A stretch of DNA of 64,000 nucleotides, from assembly GCA_000155695.1 (NCBI GenBank), contig DS990592.1, positions 878,784 to 942,783 on the forward strand. The letters run 5' to 3'. Numbering within the stretch: the first letter of the stretch is position 1; each line of letters starts with the position of its first letter. Position numbers and translations under genes: made by a program. Positions 11,764-52,810 of the stretch are shown here, in pieces. Under the pieces are notes generated by a model. It saw nothing but the letters and a program-made list of their open reading frames with translations, did not search any database and was not told the origin of the DNA. Source of the stretch: Verrucomicrobiia bacterium DG1235. Lineage in GTDB: Bacteria > Verrucomicrobiota > Verrucomicrobiia > Opitutales > Opitutaceae.

Positions 11764-12837
11764 TCAGAGCGCATCCGCCAGTTTCCTTATAGTGTTTTCC
11801 GTATCCTCCCAGCCAATACAGGCATCCGTTATAGACTGCCCGAATCTACGAGCGCCTCCAACTTCCGCATCTTGCCGTCCCTCAACGAGATGACTCTCCA
11901 GCATGATCCCAGCGATGCCTCTCTGCCCCGCTTTCCACTGTCGCAAAACCTCATTCACTACGCTCGGTTGCCTTCGAAATTCCTTGTTCGAGTTTCCATG
12001 CGAGCAGTCGACCACTACCGGTCGCTCGATTCCAAGATCCCTACCCTGAGTCACGACCTCATTGACACTGGCTTCAGTATAGTTCGGACCCTGAGATCCC
12101 CCGCGAAGAATTATATGCCCTCCTAAATTTCCCCTCGTTTCCAGCAGACAGGGGGCACCGTCAAGATTCTGCCCGTAGAAGGAATGTGGGGAACGAACGG
12201 ATTTTACCGCATTGATGGCAGAGGCGGAATTACCGTCCATTCCGTTTTTAAGGCCTATCGGGAGCGACAGACGACTCGCCAATTCCCGATGAATTTGGCT
12301 CTCCACAGTGCGAGACCCTATCGAGCCGTAAGCCATACAGTCTTCCAAATACGGAGCCAACATCGGATTCAAGAATTCAGTCGCGCAAGCTACCCCCGAT
12401 TCATTGAGCCTGACCGCGAGCCTCCGCGCGATGCTCAAACCACCGCTTGGTCCACTCTCGCCACCGGTCAAGGGATCGTACAGCATCCCCTTCCATCCTA
12501 CCACGCTGCGAGGCTTCTCGAAATAGGTGCGCATCACCAGCACGACGCGATTTTCAAGCTCTTCGGACAATCGCCGCAGACGTTCCGCGTAGACGAGTGC
12601 AGAATTCACGTCGTCGATCGAACAAGGGCCGCACACCACCAACATCCGCTCGGAGTCTACACCACCCAATATATCGCTTATTTGCTCCCTCGCCATAGCC
12701 ACTCTCCGCTGGCCCTTGGGAGACAAAGGAATATCCCGCCTCAGCTTGCTTGGGGCCTGGATAACTGTTGTCGACGTGGACACATCGGCAGATTCGTTCA
12801 AAATGGACTGTGGCACGGAAAGCGTACTGCTATTCAT
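11764..12837 (-). CDS. aroF: 3-deoxy-7-phosphoheptulonate synthase (DAHP synthase), class I
   Basis: This 357-residue protein has the normal length of the AroF/G/H family. It joins phosphoenolpyruvate and erythrose-4-phosphate in the first step of aromatic amino-acid synthesis. Visible signatures are RMLVVCGPCSIDD, MRTYFEKPRSVVGWKGMLYD, the KNGMDG segment, HIILRGGSQGPNY and VVDCSHGNSNKEFRRQP. A leader peptide rich in Phe, Trp and Tyr and an intrinsic terminator lie directly upstream, so expression is probably controlled by charging of aromatic tRNAs. The symbol denotes the family. Which aromatic acid feeds back on the enzyme cannot be read from the sequence. Confidence 0.95.
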   Translation of the reverse strand: MNSSTLSVPQSILNESADVSTSTTVIQAPSKLRRDIPLSPKGQRRVAMAREQISDILGGVDSERMLVVCGPCSIDDVNSALVYAERLRRLSEELENRVVLVMRTYFEKPRSVVGWKGMLYDPLTGGESGPSGGLSIARRLAVRLNESGVACATEFLNPMLAPYLEDCMAYGSIGSRTVESQIHRELASRLSLPIGLKNGMDGNSASAINAVKSVRSPHSFYGQNLDGAPCLLETRGNLGGHIILRGGSQGPNYTEASVNEVVTQGRDLGIERPVVVDCSHGNSNKEFRRQPSVVNEVLRQWKAGQRGIAGIMLESHLVEGRQDAEVGGARRFGQSITDACIGWEDTENTIRKLADAL

Positions 12838-12881
12838 GGGTTGTTCGGGCTAGAGGAATGTCAGGGAGTGATTCTAAAAAT

Positions 12882-12924
12882 GCAAAAAGCCCTGGAATTC
12901 TCGTCGAATGCCAGGGCTTTTTGC
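12882..12924 (-). terminator. Attenuator: intrinsic terminator between aromatic leader peptide and DAHP synthase
   Basis: A perfect 14-bp stem (12911-12924 with 12882-12895, GCAAAAAGCCCTGG and its complement) encloses a 15-base loop containing a further 4-bp ATTC/GAAT pair. On the transcribed minus strand it is followed by ATTTTTAG. It sits 45 bases before the DAHP synthase start and 31 bases after the leader-peptide stop codon, the classical attenuator position. Confidence 0.88.
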
Positions 12925-12955
12925 GGATTGATCGGTTCTATCTAAGCAACGTCAA

Positions 12956-13018
12956 TCACTCCCCTGGGCTGGTCCAGAAGTAATAAAACCAAAAAGCGTA
13001 AGTAGAGAGGTTTCTCAT
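12956..13018 (-). CDS. Aromatic amino-acid leader peptide controlling DAHP synthase
   Basis: This short frame encodes MRNLSTYAFWFYYFWTSPGE followed by TGA. Eight of 20 residues are aromatic, including the run FWFYYFW that covers Phe, Trp and Tyr, the three end products of the pathway. It is followed by a strong terminator hairpin and then the DAHP synthase gene. The codons for Ser-Pro-Gly (CCAGGG) can pair with CCCTGG in the 5' arm of the terminator. The Ala-Phe-Trp codons (GCTTTTTG) can also pair with CAAAAAGC in the same arm. Ribosome stalling on aromatic codons could therefore favour an antiterminator. No Shine-Dalgarno is visible. Confidence 0.85.
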   Translation of the reverse strand: MRNLSTYAFWFYYFWTSPGE

Positions 13019-13028
13019 TTAGGGCGAA

Positions 13029-13057
13029 AACTTAGAAAGCGTAACGCCCTAGGTCAA
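13029..13057 (-). promoter_or_regulatory. Probable sigma-70 promoter of the aromatic leader/DAHP synthase unit
   Basis: The minus strand has TTGACC (13057-13052), a 17-base spacer and TAAGTT (13034-13029). The leader ATG at 13018 lies only 10 bases after the -10 box. The transcript would therefore have almost no 5' untranslated region, and the leader peptide may be translated from a near-leaderless mRNA. A 7-bp inverted repeat TAGGGCG/CGCCCTA (13020-13026 and 13045-13051) overlaps the -10 and spacer and could be an operator. Confidence 0.5.
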
Positions 13058-13597
13058 GAGCTAAGGCATGAGTAAATCGCTCGAATAAAGCCTGATACGT
13101 ATTAGAATTACAGATACAAATAACCCCCATTAGCATTCTTCGAATGCTTCCGACTTCATCCTTATCTTCGCCTTCACCTCGGTCACATCCTTTTTCGCCA
13201 AGGGTGCCAGCCTTGCCTTCTCCGGAAAACGCCCGCCCGCGTATTGCTTTTCACCATACGACTAGAAAGCGAGACCTAAGGCCTGTCTCCATCCGCCTGG
13301 GCAGGATCGGATTAGGCTCCATATAGATCGAATTCGAGTCCGTATAGGACCCGACATCGTGTTGGTTTCGATATATGAGACTCTAGGTTTTGAGATATAA
13401 AGTATGGCTTTAGAAATTGTGCGTAAGCCTTGGGCGTAATAATTCTTCATATACTCGAACTACAGCCCGCCAACACCCGATTTCCCTCTGATAGCGGCGT
13501 TTTTTCATTGAAAGATTAAGCACCCAATCCTTCGTTCCTTGTTCCGAAGCGGGCGTCCTCGCTTCGGGCATTCAATAAACCCTTCCTCTATTAAAAT
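13058..13597. other. Intergenic region between aroF leader promoter and GH130 gene
   Basis: About 540 bases lie between two divergent transcription units. They should hold the promoter of the GH130 gene, but no convincing -35/-10 pair or operator was found. Small open frames here show no recognisable protein features. Confidence 0.4.
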
Positions 13598-14602
13598 ATG
13601 AGCGATAACTCTACCACTAGCACTATTATTGGCGACGCTTTGCCAAATCTCCCATGGGAAGACCGTCCGGCCGGCTGCGGCGACCCCGTTTGGCGCTACA
13701 GCCAAAACCCGATCATCGGATGGAACCCTATCCCCAGCGGAGCGAGGGCTTACAACAGCGCAGTGGTACCCTATGGCGACGCTTTCGTGGGCGTCTTTCG
13801 TATCGACAGCAAAAGCGGCCGCGCCGGGCTACACTTCGGCACCAGTCCAGACGCTCTAAACTGGACCCTCGAGGACAAGCTCATCGATTGGGTCGACGAA
13901 GACGGAAATCCAAATCCGAATTCCTACGCCTACGACCCACGCGTCGTCAAAATCGAGGACACCTACTACATCACCTGGTGTGACGATCTCAAGGGAGCCT
14001 CCATCGGCATGGGCTACACGAAAGACTTCAAGACATTCGTGAAAGCGGAAAACCCGCTCATGCCATTCAATCGCAACGGTGTTCTCTTTCCGCGCAAGAT
14101 TGGCGGCGAATACGTGCTTCTCAGCCGTCCAAGCGACAGCGCTCATACCCCATTCGGCGACATCTTCCTTAGCCATTCCCCAGACATGACCTACTGGGGC
14201 AAGCATCGTCACGTCATGAGCTCGGGAGGTTCAGGCTGGTGGCAAGGCACGAAGATCGGCGCAGGGCCCATACCAATAGAAACGAAGGAAGGCTGGCTTC
14301 TCTTCTACCACGGCGTGTCCGGCACATGCAACGGCTTCGTCTACAGCATCGGCGCCGCCTTGCTCGACCTCGAAGACCCATCCAAAGTTCTCTACCGCAC
14401 ACGCGGATACCTGCTCACTCCAGAGAAGAGCTACGAAACCGCTGGATTCGTGCCTAACGTAGCTTTCCCTTGCGCGACGATGTTCGACGCTCCAAGCGGC
14501 AAAATCGCCATATACTACGGTGCGGCAGACACCTACTCCGCCGTCGCCTACACGCAAGTCGACGAACTGATCGCGTTCATCAAGAACGATTCCGAAGTCT
14601 AA
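13598..14602 (+). CDS. Glycoside hydrolase family 130 protein (mannoside phosphorylase or mannosidase type)
   Basis: This 334-residue protein lacks a signal peptide, so it acts in the cytoplasm. It has the five-bladed propeller sequence pattern of GH130. Examples are GARAYNSAVVPYGDAFVGVF, the conserved AYDPRVVKIEDTYYITWCDD with the likely catalytic Asp near residue 113, RNGVLFPRKIGGEYVLLSRP and GAGPIPIETKEGWLLFYHGV. GH130 enzymes phosphorolyse or hydrolyse beta-mannosides, such as mannosyl-glucose or mannan oligosaccharides. The subfamily and linkage cannot be assigned by eye. The nearby GH43 and CE2-type genes support a role in plant or algal polysaccharide use. Confidence 0.9.
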   Translation: MSDNSTTSTIIGDALPNLPWEDRPAGCGDPVWRYSQNPIIGWNPIPSGARAYNSAVVPYGDAFVGVFRIDSKSGRAGLHFGTSPDALNWTLEDKLIDWVDEDGNPNPNSYAYDPRVVKIEDTYYITWCDDLKGASIGMGYTKDFKTFVKAENPLMPFNRNGVLFPRKIGGEYVLLSRPSDSAHTPFGDIFLSHSPDMTYWGKHRHVMSSGGSGWWQGTKIGAGPIPIETKEGWLLFYHGVSGTCNGFVYSIGAALLDLEDPSKVLYRTRGYLLTPEKSYETAGFVPNVAFPCATMFDAPSGKIAIYYGAADTYSAVAYTQVDELIAFIKNDSEV

Positions 14603-49527: not shown

Positions 49528-50463
49528 TCAGGCAAGTGCGACATCGAGTTTTTTAACTAAGTAGTGAGTGTGGATAAGTAGCTTCCTCATGGCAGCGACA
49601 ACTGCCCACTTGAACGGCCGGCCGGCATCGAGAAAGTGTTGGGTGTAGGCTCTAATGACATCGTTGTGGCGGTAGGCCGCCACCGCGGCCAGATAAAGGC
49701 AGCGGCGAACCTTTGCTCGCCCGCCGAAAATCTTCCGGATCTTCTTGGAGTCCCCCGAGTCCCGATTGTAGGGAGCCAGACCGGCGAGCGCTACCACTTG
49801 GTTGCGGCTGAGCCGACCCAGTTCGGGCAGGTAGGCCAACAGGGTCCATGCCGTAACCGGCCCGATGCCCACTACCGAAACAAGTGTTTCGTAGACTTTG
49901 GCGAAGGATGCGAAGCCGGCGACCAGCCGGCGAATCTGCCCGTCTACTGTCTCGATCTCGCGTTCGACTATGTCGATCATGCGTCCCACGCTTTGCGCGA
50001 CCAATCCGTCGCACTTCTGCAGACGGGTCTTCTCTCGCTTGAGCTGCTCGCTCAAGTGCTCCCGCCGATCCATCAGCGCCGCCAAGGCCTTGCGTTGCGG
50101 ACTTGGAGCAGGAGTTGCCCGGGGACGCTTTTCCCGCGCGAAACGCAGAAGCATCTTCGCGTCAATCGGATCGGTCTTGGCCTTCACGCCCTCGCTTTGG
50201 GCAAAGTAGCGGACCTTGGCCGGCGACACCACGCTCACCGCTATGCCGCGAGAATGCAGCAGGCCCACCAGGGCGCGTTCGTACCCTCCAGTCGCCTCGC
50301 AGATGAAATGCGACTGAGAGAAACCGGCATGCTTCTTGAGCAGCCCCTCCAACGCGGCCTCGCTGTTGGCGACGCTGCGGCTTTTGCTCCAATCCTCGGA
50401 AAGGACCTCCAAGGTCTTCTTGGAGACATCGATGGCGATATATGAAACGGCTTGTGTATCCAT
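49528..50463 (-). CDS. IS110-family transposase (DEDD/serine recombinase)
   Basis: The 311-residue protein has the RuvC-like DEDD domain at the N-terminus: YIAIDVSKKTLEVLSED with the first Asp, ICEATGGYERALVGLLHSRG with the Glu, and VKAKTDPIDAKMLLRFAREK with the last two Asp. A coiled-coil (about 115-180) leads to the Transposase_20 domain (VSVVGIGPVTAWTLLAYLPE, then LAGLAPYNRDSGDSKKIRKI containing the likely catalytic Ser). Members such as IS621 recombine DNA using a bridge RNA encoded in the element. No frameshift is seen, so it may be active. Confidence 0.95.
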   Translation of the reverse strand: MDTQAVSYIAIDVSKKTLEVLSEDWSKSRSVANSEAALEGLLKKHAGFSQSHFICEATGGYERALVGLLHSRGIAVSVVSPAKVRYFAQSEGVKAKTDPIDAKMLLRFAREKRPRATPAPSPQRKALAALMDRREHLSEQLKREKTRLQKCDGLVAQSVGRMIDIVEREIETVDGQIRRLVAGFASFAKVYETLVSVVGIGPVTAWTLLAYLPELGRLSRNQVVALAGLAPYNRDSGDSKKIRKIFGGRAKVRRCLYLAAVAAYRHNDVIRAYTQHFLDAGRPFKWAVVAAMRKLLIHTHYLVKKLDVALA

Positions 50464-51304: not shown

Positions 51305-52810
51305 ATGGCACATCAATTACACCCGAACATAAACCTCGAGACATTCGAGTCGCTTGCCCAAAAGGGAAACGTCATCCCCGTCTACGCGGACTTGATGGCC
51401 GATCTGGAAACGCCTCTCACCGCCTACTCGAAACTGAAGACCGACGGACCCGCATTTCTTCTCGAGTCAATCGAAGGCGGCGAGCGCCTCTCGCGTTACA
51501 CCTTCATAGCCTGTCGCCCTCGCAAAGTCTTCAAATGCTACTGGGACAAGACCATTATCGAGGAAACCGGCCAGCCGGACCGCGAAATCGAAACCCCGCA
51601 GGATCCGCTTTCCCTCGTCGAGGAAGAAATCGCCAAACACCACCCTGTCGAAATGGCGGAACTTGCCCCCTTCACCGGAGGAGCCGTCGGGTATGTGTCC
51701 TACGAATACATTTCGCGCATTGAGACTGTAGTGCCAACCGCCAAGAAAAATTGCCATGGCTCACCGCTCGCCTACTACATGCTGGCCGACTCCGTCGTGA
51801 TTTTCGACCGAGCCAAACAAACCATGCGCCTGCTGGTAAACGCTCGCCTCGAGGGACAAGAATCCGCCGCTACCGCCTATCAGGCTGCCCTCGACGAACT
51901 CGCCCAACTGAAGGCTAAACTTGAAGAACGCTGCGACCTCTCCCCCGCTACGCTCAACCCGCCCGAAGCGCTGCAAGTCCCCCAAGGCAACTTTGAGAAG
52001 GAAGACTTCGAGGACATGGTCGAGCGCACGAAGGAGTACATTCGTTCAGGAGACATCATCCAAGTCGTGCTCAGCCAGCGCTTCGAAAAAGACTTCGATA
52101 AATCCGCCCTCGACCTCTACCGCGCTCTTCGCAACGTAAACCCCTCGCCTTACATGTTCCTGCTGGAGACCAGCGATTTCGCCATCGTCGGAGCGTCCCC
52201 AGAAGTCCATGTCCGCCTCACCGACAACAAGGTCGAAATTCGTCCAATCGCCGGCACTCGCCATCGCGGAAAGACGGAAGAACAAGATACCTTGCTAGAA
52301 GAAGAGCTACTAGCCGACGAAAAAGAAAAGGCCGAGCACCTCATGCTCGTCGACCTCGCGAGAAACGACATTGGGCGAGTCTGCGAGTTTGGCTCTGTTG
52401 AAGTCCCCGACTACATGATCGTCGAACGCTATTCTCACGTGATGCACATCGTCTCTCAGGTCGAGGGGACGATCGCCGCCGACAAGAACGCCTTCGATCT
52501 CATGCGGGCAACATTCCCCGCCGGCACCGTTAGCGGCGCGCCAAAAATTCGCGCCATGCAGATCATATCGGAAAACGAGCCCGACCAACGCGAGTTCTAT
52601 TCCGGAGCCCTTGGCTACTTCAGCTACAACGGAAATCTAGATACCTGCATCACGCTCAGGACGGCTATGGTCAAAGACGGCAAGGTCGTCATCCAATCAG
52701 GTGCTGGCATCGTCGCGGACTCGGTACCCGAGAGCGAATATCAAGAGACAATCTTCAAGGCTTCAGCTCTTTTCAGGGCAGTTGCCTTGGCTGAGAATTT
52801 CGAGGGGTAG
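51305..52810 (+). CDS. trpE: Anthranilate synthase component I
   Basis: This 501-residue protein of standard length converts chorismate and glutamine-derived ammonia to anthranilate, the first step of tryptophan synthesis. The N-terminal domain includes the LLES (Trp feedback) motif as PAFLLESIEGGERLSRYTFI. The catalytic domain includes YIRSGDIIQVVLSQRFEKDF, NPSPYMFLLETSDFAIVGAS, RPIAGTRHRGKTEEQD, LMLVDLARNDIGRVCEFGSV and FPAGTVSGAPKIRAMQIISE. No trpG or trpD is adjacent. Unlike the DAHP synthase gene, its 170-base upstream region shows no aromatic leader peptide. Confidence 0.97.
   Translation: MAHQLHPNINLETFESLAQKGNVIPVYADLMADLETPLTAYSKLKTDGPAFLLESIEGGERLSRYTFIACRPRKVFKCYWDKTIIEETGQPDREIETPQDPLSLVEEEIAKHHPVEMAELAPFTGGAVGYVSYEYISRIETVVPTAKKNCHGSPLAYYMLADSVVIFDRAKQTMRLLVNARLEGQESAATAYQAALDELAQLKAKLEERCDLSPATLNPPEALQVPQGNFEKEDFEDMVERTKEYIRSGDIIQVVLSQRFEKDFDKSALDLYRALRNVNPSPYMFLLETSDFAIVGASPEVHVRLTDNKVEIRPIAGTRHRGKTEEQDTLLEEELLADEKEKAEHLMLVDLARNDIGRVCEFGSVEVPDYMIVERYSHVMHIVSQVEGTIAADKNAFDLMRATFPAGTVSGAPKIRAMQIISENEPDQREFYSGALGYFSYNGNLDTCITLRTAMVKDGKVVIQSGAGIVADSVPESEYQETIFKASALFRAVALAENFEG

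Follow-up and report, generated by a model that had tools for sequence, protein, structure and literature searches.

A putative leader-peptide attenuator with phenylalanine, tryptophan and tyrosine codons upstream of a DAHP synthase gene in Verrucomicrobiota

Attenuation by leader peptides is a classical mechanism, and the locus described here has the layout of the E. coli trp, pheA and pheST attenuators, with arms that pair as 1:2, 2:3 and 3:4, control codons near arm 1 and a stop codon near arm 2; those leaders, however, read one amino acid each and precede other genes, whereas seven aromatic codons of three kinds are found here. One leader reading several amino acids of related pathways is known from ilvGMEDA and thr, but these leaders respond to branched-chain amino acids or to Thr and Ile, not to aromatics. 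A leader peptide upstream of a DAHP synthase gene, aroR upstream of aroF in Corynebacterium glutamicum, was reportedly described by Neshat et al. in 2014. According to a review (PMC11802643), aroR carries a Phe-Tyr-Phe motif and responds to Phe, the availability of Tyr being without effect, and another source words it as control of translation by Phe and Tyr (PMC7356990). By these descriptions, aroR resembles the present locus in being a leader-peptide attenuator directly 5' of a DAHP synthase gene with more than one aromatic amino acid per leader, and it differs in belonging to an actinobacterium and in its Phe-Tyr-Phe motif, the leader here having Trp as well; the two are likened by description, not by sequence. 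Similarly, uORFC-13-1 of aroF in Acholeplasma combines an upstream ORF and a terminator before a DAHP synthase gene, with attenuation proposed, but it is described with at least one Phe codon only, a ribosome binding site in its consensus and an extra base-paired substructure, and it comes from another phylum (PMC8632094).

The original prediction had named the enteric trp and phe leaders, with one amino acid each, as the known systems; as a correction, multi-amino-acid leaders, and DAHP synthase leaders in other phyla, were already known. In the literature that we searched, key subscription papers lying outside its scope, we found neither a three-aromatic leader nor an aromatic leader in Opitutae or Verrucomicrobia. 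The novelty is not attenuation as such; it lies in a single leader that has codons for all three aromatics, even Trp, and in the taxon. In a 2010 survey, leader-peptide systems were known only in Proteobacteria and Actinobacteria, to which Firmicutes were added (PMC2965389); if the present reading is true, no leader-peptide attenuator would have been described from Verrucomicrobiota before this one, which would extend classical attenuation to them.

The locus lies in a stretch of DNA of 64,000 nucleotides (the whole of which is called the window) and has the following parts.

13052..13057, minus strand: candidate -35 hexamer TTGACC, putative, 39 nt 5' of the leader ATG
13029..13034, minus strand: candidate -10 hexamer TAAGTT, weak and putative, from which the start site would be 0-5 nt from the ATG
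12956..13018, minus strand: leader ORF MRNLSTYAFWFYYFWTSPGE and its TGA stop, read from the sequence; such a leader is present at 19 of 20 orthologous loci
12974..12994, minus strand: control codon core F-W-F-Y-Y-F-W (TTTTGGTTTTATTACTTCTGG), the sole match in the window, from the codon table of 19 leaders
12974..12980, minus strand: arm 1, CTTCTGG, the last base of codon 5 plus codons F6-W7, pairing with arm 2 according to RNAalifold
12961..12967, minus strand: arm 2, CCAGGGG, the codons just 5' of the stop, pairing with arm 1 or arm 3
12911..12924, minus strand: terminator 5' arm GCAAAAAGCCCTGG, read from the sequence
12917-12911, minus strand: arm 3 core GCCCTGG, inside the terminator 5' arm and identical in 19/19 leaders
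12882..12895, minus strand: terminator 3' arm (arm 4), CCAGGGCTTTTTGC, with ATTTTT coming next
11764..12837, minus strand: class I DAHP synthase (3-deoxy-7-phosphoheptulonate synthase) by NCBIfam, the proposed regulated gene

All the pieces first pointed out, namely a 20-residue ORF with eight aromatics, a perfect 14-bp stem and a DAHP synthase gene downstream, were present on the minus strand. The eight aromatics among the 20 codons of the leader are three Phe, two Trp and three Tyr. Its stop is separated by 31 nt from the terminator stem, whose 14 perfect pairs enclose a loop of 15 nt (12924-12882), and a further 44 nt lead to the DAHP synthase gene of 357 codons (12837-11764). The gene on the other side of the leader (13598-14602) points away from it.

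Such a run of codons would hardly be expected by chance, because a degenerate DNA pattern for F-W-F-[YF]-[YF]-F-W matched once in the window and in 0/100 dinucleotide shuffles, and a run of at least seven aromatic codons including F, W and Y occurred once in the window and never in 300 windows of 64 kb simulated by a first-order Markov model. The RNA from leader to terminator was more stable than 200/200 shuffles (folding z = -4.97). When window positions 12700-13500 were searched with the Rfam 15 covariance models, no T-box or any other family reached its gathering score (best match 21.3 bits, against a cut-off of 50), and the phage records searched gave no match to the leader.

We propose, with a probability of roughly 0.86, that the locus is a ribosome-mediated (leader-peptide) transcription attenuator which controls the DAHP synthase gene and reacts when charged aromatic tRNAs run low. 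What is established is that the sequence parts exist and are conserved, that their pairings exclude each other and that the control codons fit these pairings; the events built upon them, from the transcription start through coupling, stalling and termination to the separate sensing of Phe, Trp and Tyr, would be as follows. Transcription would begin just 5' of the leader ATG, and the first ribosome would translate the leader while RNA polymerase proceeds. With all aromatic tRNAs charged, the ribosome would reach the stop and cover arm 2, whereupon arms 3 and 4 would form the terminator and the transcript would end near 12880. With tRNA-Phe, tRNA-Trp or tRNA-Tyr in short supply, the ribosome would stall in F-W-F-Y-Y-F-W, covering arm 1 and freeing arm 2, and the 2:3 antiterminator would form before arm 4 is made, so that the DAHP synthase gene would be transcribed. 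Any single shortage would be enough, and the first step of the common pathway would therefore be under an OR gate. That the seven-codon run of this near-leaderless ORF reads the charging of tRNA-Phe, tRNA-Trp and tRNA-Tyr alike, and controls the first common step in this way, we regard as somewhat probable. It would be a natural example of a single leader integrating every end product of a branched pathway; in E. coli, separate repressors and isoenzymes serve the aromatic end products. If the three amino acids act independently, multi-input attenuation logic could be tested directly by codon swaps.

Orthologues were sought by protein in 150 family genomes and then in three genera (8 genomes in g1, 2 in g13 and 11 in g48), and a sequence orthologue of the leader-bearing gene was present in 20 genomes (7/8, 2/2 and 11/11, respectively). 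The leader core F-W-F-[YFH]-[YFTC]-F-[WG], the terminator and a CCAG-type antiterminator arm were kept at 19 of these 20 loci and in all three genera, the 20th (G101) being a decayed copy; the aromatic attenuator suspected in the original prediction, together with its expectation of conservation in close relatives, is thus supported by conserved peptide and hairpins. The leader stop lay 91-206 nt 5' of the matched part of the DAHP synthase in the 19 leaders. Since only three genera, all of the same family, contribute to the 19 loci, the independent events are few.

The core pattern, which misses G120 (W7 to G) and G101, was searched in 252 family genomes, of which 19 matched, 18 at the leader locus and one by chance (L203), with 6 in the reversed control; a stricter pattern in 387 phylum genomes matched 5, 4 of them at the leader locus, with 1 in the reversed control. 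A contig scan with the core pattern returned at least 117 stretches, which were judged by eye from the first ORFs downstream of those matches that fell in short frames. Among the matches listed, a DAHP synthase gene was downstream only at L064 (Opitutaceae bacterium EAC85), where the leader peptide is the same as that of G137; the remaining stretches had no DAHP synthase downstream among the matches listed, and look like chance. A covariance model of the 19 leaders, searched with strict filters, scored 76.7-108.6 bits at 20/20 loci, G101 being the sole locus outside the training set. Elsewhere in 252 family and 384 class genomes it gave antisense matches at the same loci of at most 44.6 bits and others of at most 29.1 bits, and weak matches of the latter kind were found outside the three genera in 8 family and 13 class genomes.

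The 600 nt upstream of 41 other DAHP synthase loci contained no short frame in which 9 residues included more than 4 aromatics (the scan took 42 loci, L015 having just 104 nt upstream). In a tree of 57 proteins, the 17 leader-bearing proteins formed one clade (support 100/99) and the leader label changed once, at the join of the two halves, where a long-branch warning applies; G048, G101 and G505, broken or partial, were left out of this tree and L013 (G137) entered it with its stop as X.

From the alignment only, RNAalifold returned a 7-bp hairpin, CUUCUGG : CCAGRGG (1:2), and the terminator (3:4). The 1:2 arms were paired in 97.7% of cells, versus 39-72% when slid, and had no compensatory change, which may be expected because both arms are also coding; the support for this predicted hairpin is one of conservation only, arm 1 being constrained by the peptide as well. 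The 2:3 arms, CC(C)AG(R)GGC : GCCCUGG(G), were paired in 94.1% of cells over the 19 leaders, versus 3-59% when slid (maximum 58.6%), with duplex energies of -11.9 to -17.3 kcal/mol. Uninterrupted terminator stems of 10-20 bp were found in 19/19. Covariation, which had been named beforehand as a mark of a genuine switch, was seen in one pair of 2:3, with a score reached by 14/500 shuffles, and as one compensatory pair in the terminator (A-U 10, G-C 7, G-U 1, gap 1). The outermost 2:3 pair (columns 57-128) was C-G in 11 rows, U-A in 3 and unpaired in 5, all five from g1, and column 128 also pairs with arm-4 column 144 in the same 14 rows (G-C 7, G-U 4, A-U 3). As predicted from the sequences, the 2:3 antiterminator excludes the 3:4 terminator, the two pairings being mutually exclusive.

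Two leader segments had originally been thought to pair with the 5' arm of the terminator. CCAGGG does so and is conserved; GCTTTTTG pairs with CAAAAAGC here, but this pairing is not conserved, all 8 pairs being possible in just 2/19 homologues, and it was rejected as a switch arm. Since GCTTTTTG:CAAAAAGC crosses CCAGGG:CCCTGG, both are impossible in one nested structure.

In order to place the ribosome on the leader, the transcripts of the 19 leaders were folded as far as the terminator loop, its last base included, and the footprint was masked codon by codon. With any of core codons 1-6 in the A site the mean 2:3 probability was 0.90-0.92, and it fell to 0.43 with codon 7 there and to 0.00 with the stop, and with the ribosome at the stop the 3:4 terminator had a probability of 1.00, the folding model giving the same picture in 19/19 leaders. 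The end of the aromatic run therefore lies close to the point beyond which a stall would no longer free arm 2, a boundary that moves by one codon when the footprint edge is moved by 3 nt. Stalls on codons 5' of the core were also predicted to antiterminate, and for this reason the position of the run is fitting but not unique. Without a ribosome, 2:3 had a probability of at least 0.95 in 4/19 leaders (mean 0.34); 1:2 therefore does not always win.

The codons of the core bear on which amino acids may be read. Codons 1, 2, 3 and 6 were F, W, F and F in 19/19 leaders and codon 7 was W in 18/19 (G in G120), whereas codons 4 (Y 14, F 4, H 1) and 5 (Y 10, F 5, T 3, C 1) varied. Codons 1 and 3 were TTT in 18/19 leaders and codon 6, within arm 1, was TTC in 18/19; the window ORFs of at least 300 codons favour TTC over TTT twofold (479 vs 230). 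Each of the 19 leaders had both Phe and Trp codons and one or more Tyr codons, with which the original proposal that one leader reads the charging of all three tRNAs would be consistent. The reading of Tyr is probably the weakest step, the Phe and Trp positions being almost fixed and the Tyr positions varying, and it would be weaker still because the Tyr codon of C. glutamicum aroR seems not to matter. Such variation, together with the lack of effect of Tyr availability given for aroR in the review (PMC11802643), would also suit the same attenuator if nothing but Phe and Trp, or just one of the two, were of consequence, the Tyr codons being passengers of an aromatic-rich core. We consider this possible but rather unlikely, at least one Tyr codon being kept, in or just before the core, in 19/19 leaders (L010 by eye) and within the range of A-site positions where 2:3 forms.

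The aroR leader transcript of C. glutamicum is reportedly leaderless, and a near-leaderless leader mRNA seems to apply here as well. The start codon was ATG in 17/19 leaders and GTG in G057, and in G078 the aligned codon was ATT, preceded by GTG. Most leaders had no Shine-Dalgarno sequence (by eye), and translation would therefore depend on leaderless initiation. TTGACC was found 36-40 nt 5' of the ATG in 7/7 g1 leaders (6 by an uncontrolled position scan and L007 by eye), and TTTACA at -37 to -39 from the ATG in 4/10 g48 leaders by the same uncontrolled scan. The -10-like hexamers downstream of these -35 candidates were weak, and in several other leaders the best site was elsewhere; no promoter of the leader appeared in a generic promoter scan, and TAAGTT was absent from the consensus-scan list. 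These features suggest that the leader mRNA is near-leaderless, as has been reported for attenuators of S. lividans (PMC8079986).

The core is conserved as a sequence, beyond its composition, as would also be seen if the aromatic peptide stalled the ribosome for a free ligand, and not for tRNA charging, by a nascent-peptide arrest like that of TnaC, but we regard this as very improbable. Arrest peptides need residues N-terminal, in the ribosome tunnel, and the residues N-terminal to the core differ between genera here, while core positions 4-5 change. Moreover, although TnaC is a precedent for sensing free Trp (PMC3902921), arrest at high ligand would turn the gene on in plenty, presumably the wrong sign for a biosynthetic gene. 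Least credible of all is that the ORF is a chance frame and that the terminator just damps transcription constitutively or closes some other transcript: a strong terminator would by itself lower expression too, and the generic scan offered no leader promoter, but the core, frame and stop were kept, and ATG in 17/19, though the downstream proteins are 46-74% identical, the core pattern and the aromatic run were missing from all the shuffles and simulated windows, and the next gene, at 13598-14602, runs away from the leader.

The gene under the proposed attenuator encodes a protein that scored 391.9 bits with TIGR00034 aroFGH (NCBIfam cut-off 173.2) and passed the cut-off of NF009395 too, and its top PDB sequence match was a Tyr-sensitive DAHP synthase, followed by Phe-sensitive ones. 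The GPCS, D-C-S-H-x-N and M-[LI]-E-S stretches were present in 17/17 leader-bearing proteins checked, and S-I-T-D-x-C was absent in L012 only; we take these stretches to hold the catalytic residues of DAHP synthase. The mean identity of the leader-bearing DAHP synthase was 0.55, vs 0.79 for the second such enzyme that these genomes encode, and it was the lower of the two in 120/120 pairs (16 genomes, the window's included). In-frame stops were found in 4 of the 20 leader-bearing genes (G137 L013, G505 L173, G101 L185 and G048 L188), all from g48, where the gene is therefore in the course of being lost. In G048 the gene is broken and the leader intact. In G101 both are decayed, the leader being cut short by a premature stop and the gene interrupted by stops, and the terminator 5' arm has one substitution with a G-U pair still possible.

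Five g1 relatives (L004, L005, L006, L007 and L155) have a gene that terminates shortly 5' of the leader; these five genes are mutually 60-72% identical, and the one in L005 (95-1192) is a hybrid histidine kinase/response regulator. The window has a divergent GH130 gene (13598-14602) in this position instead.

Four other genes of this genome whose products use chorismate or prephenate, namely trpE (window 51305-52810) and genes that are pabB-like, isochorismate synthase-like and of the PDT-domain type (pheA-like), had no aromatic leader when about 500 nt were scanned by a script for 8-residue stretches with 3 aromatics, or for 2 Trp. One frame listed before L205 was apparently the end of the preceding gene. 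Upstream of trpE, the window contains a transposase-like ORF (49528-50463), which by its look we take to be of the IS110 type.

One clade of DAHP synthase paralogues had, in place of an aromatic leader, another, strongly conserved RNA upstream, found at 25/41 loci by exact string plus the L021 variant. Two copies are in the genome of the window.

L159 1335-1433 (G000:C6:2934357-2934455), outside the window: conserved RNA before the second DAHP synthase gene
L256 536-639 (G000:C6:1243335-1243438): second copy of the same RNA

In this RNA there are two hairpins, one short and the other long and terminator-like with CTTAGGGGTAGG as its loop, and a stretch, TTTGGGGTAACTAAGAAA, that hardly varies; 7/24 predicted pairs had changes on both sides (covarying stems), and no match was found in Rfam. 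As the RNA before the second gene is a different one, each DAHP synthase gene of this genome seems to have an RNA device of its own. In the 387-genome phylum sample, a model of this RNA matched 37/37 family genomes and 25/26 others of the order, a genome having as many as 7 copies, whereas outside the order there were only 7 matches, all weak, making it a candidate for a new regulatory RNA class of the order, either a cis element or a small RNA. Copies also preceded PhoH-like genes (9 of the 43 copies examined), a Ku gene and others, and the L256 copy lies 179 nt 5' of a gene weakly like the EstD esterase (131 bits, against a cut-off of 600).
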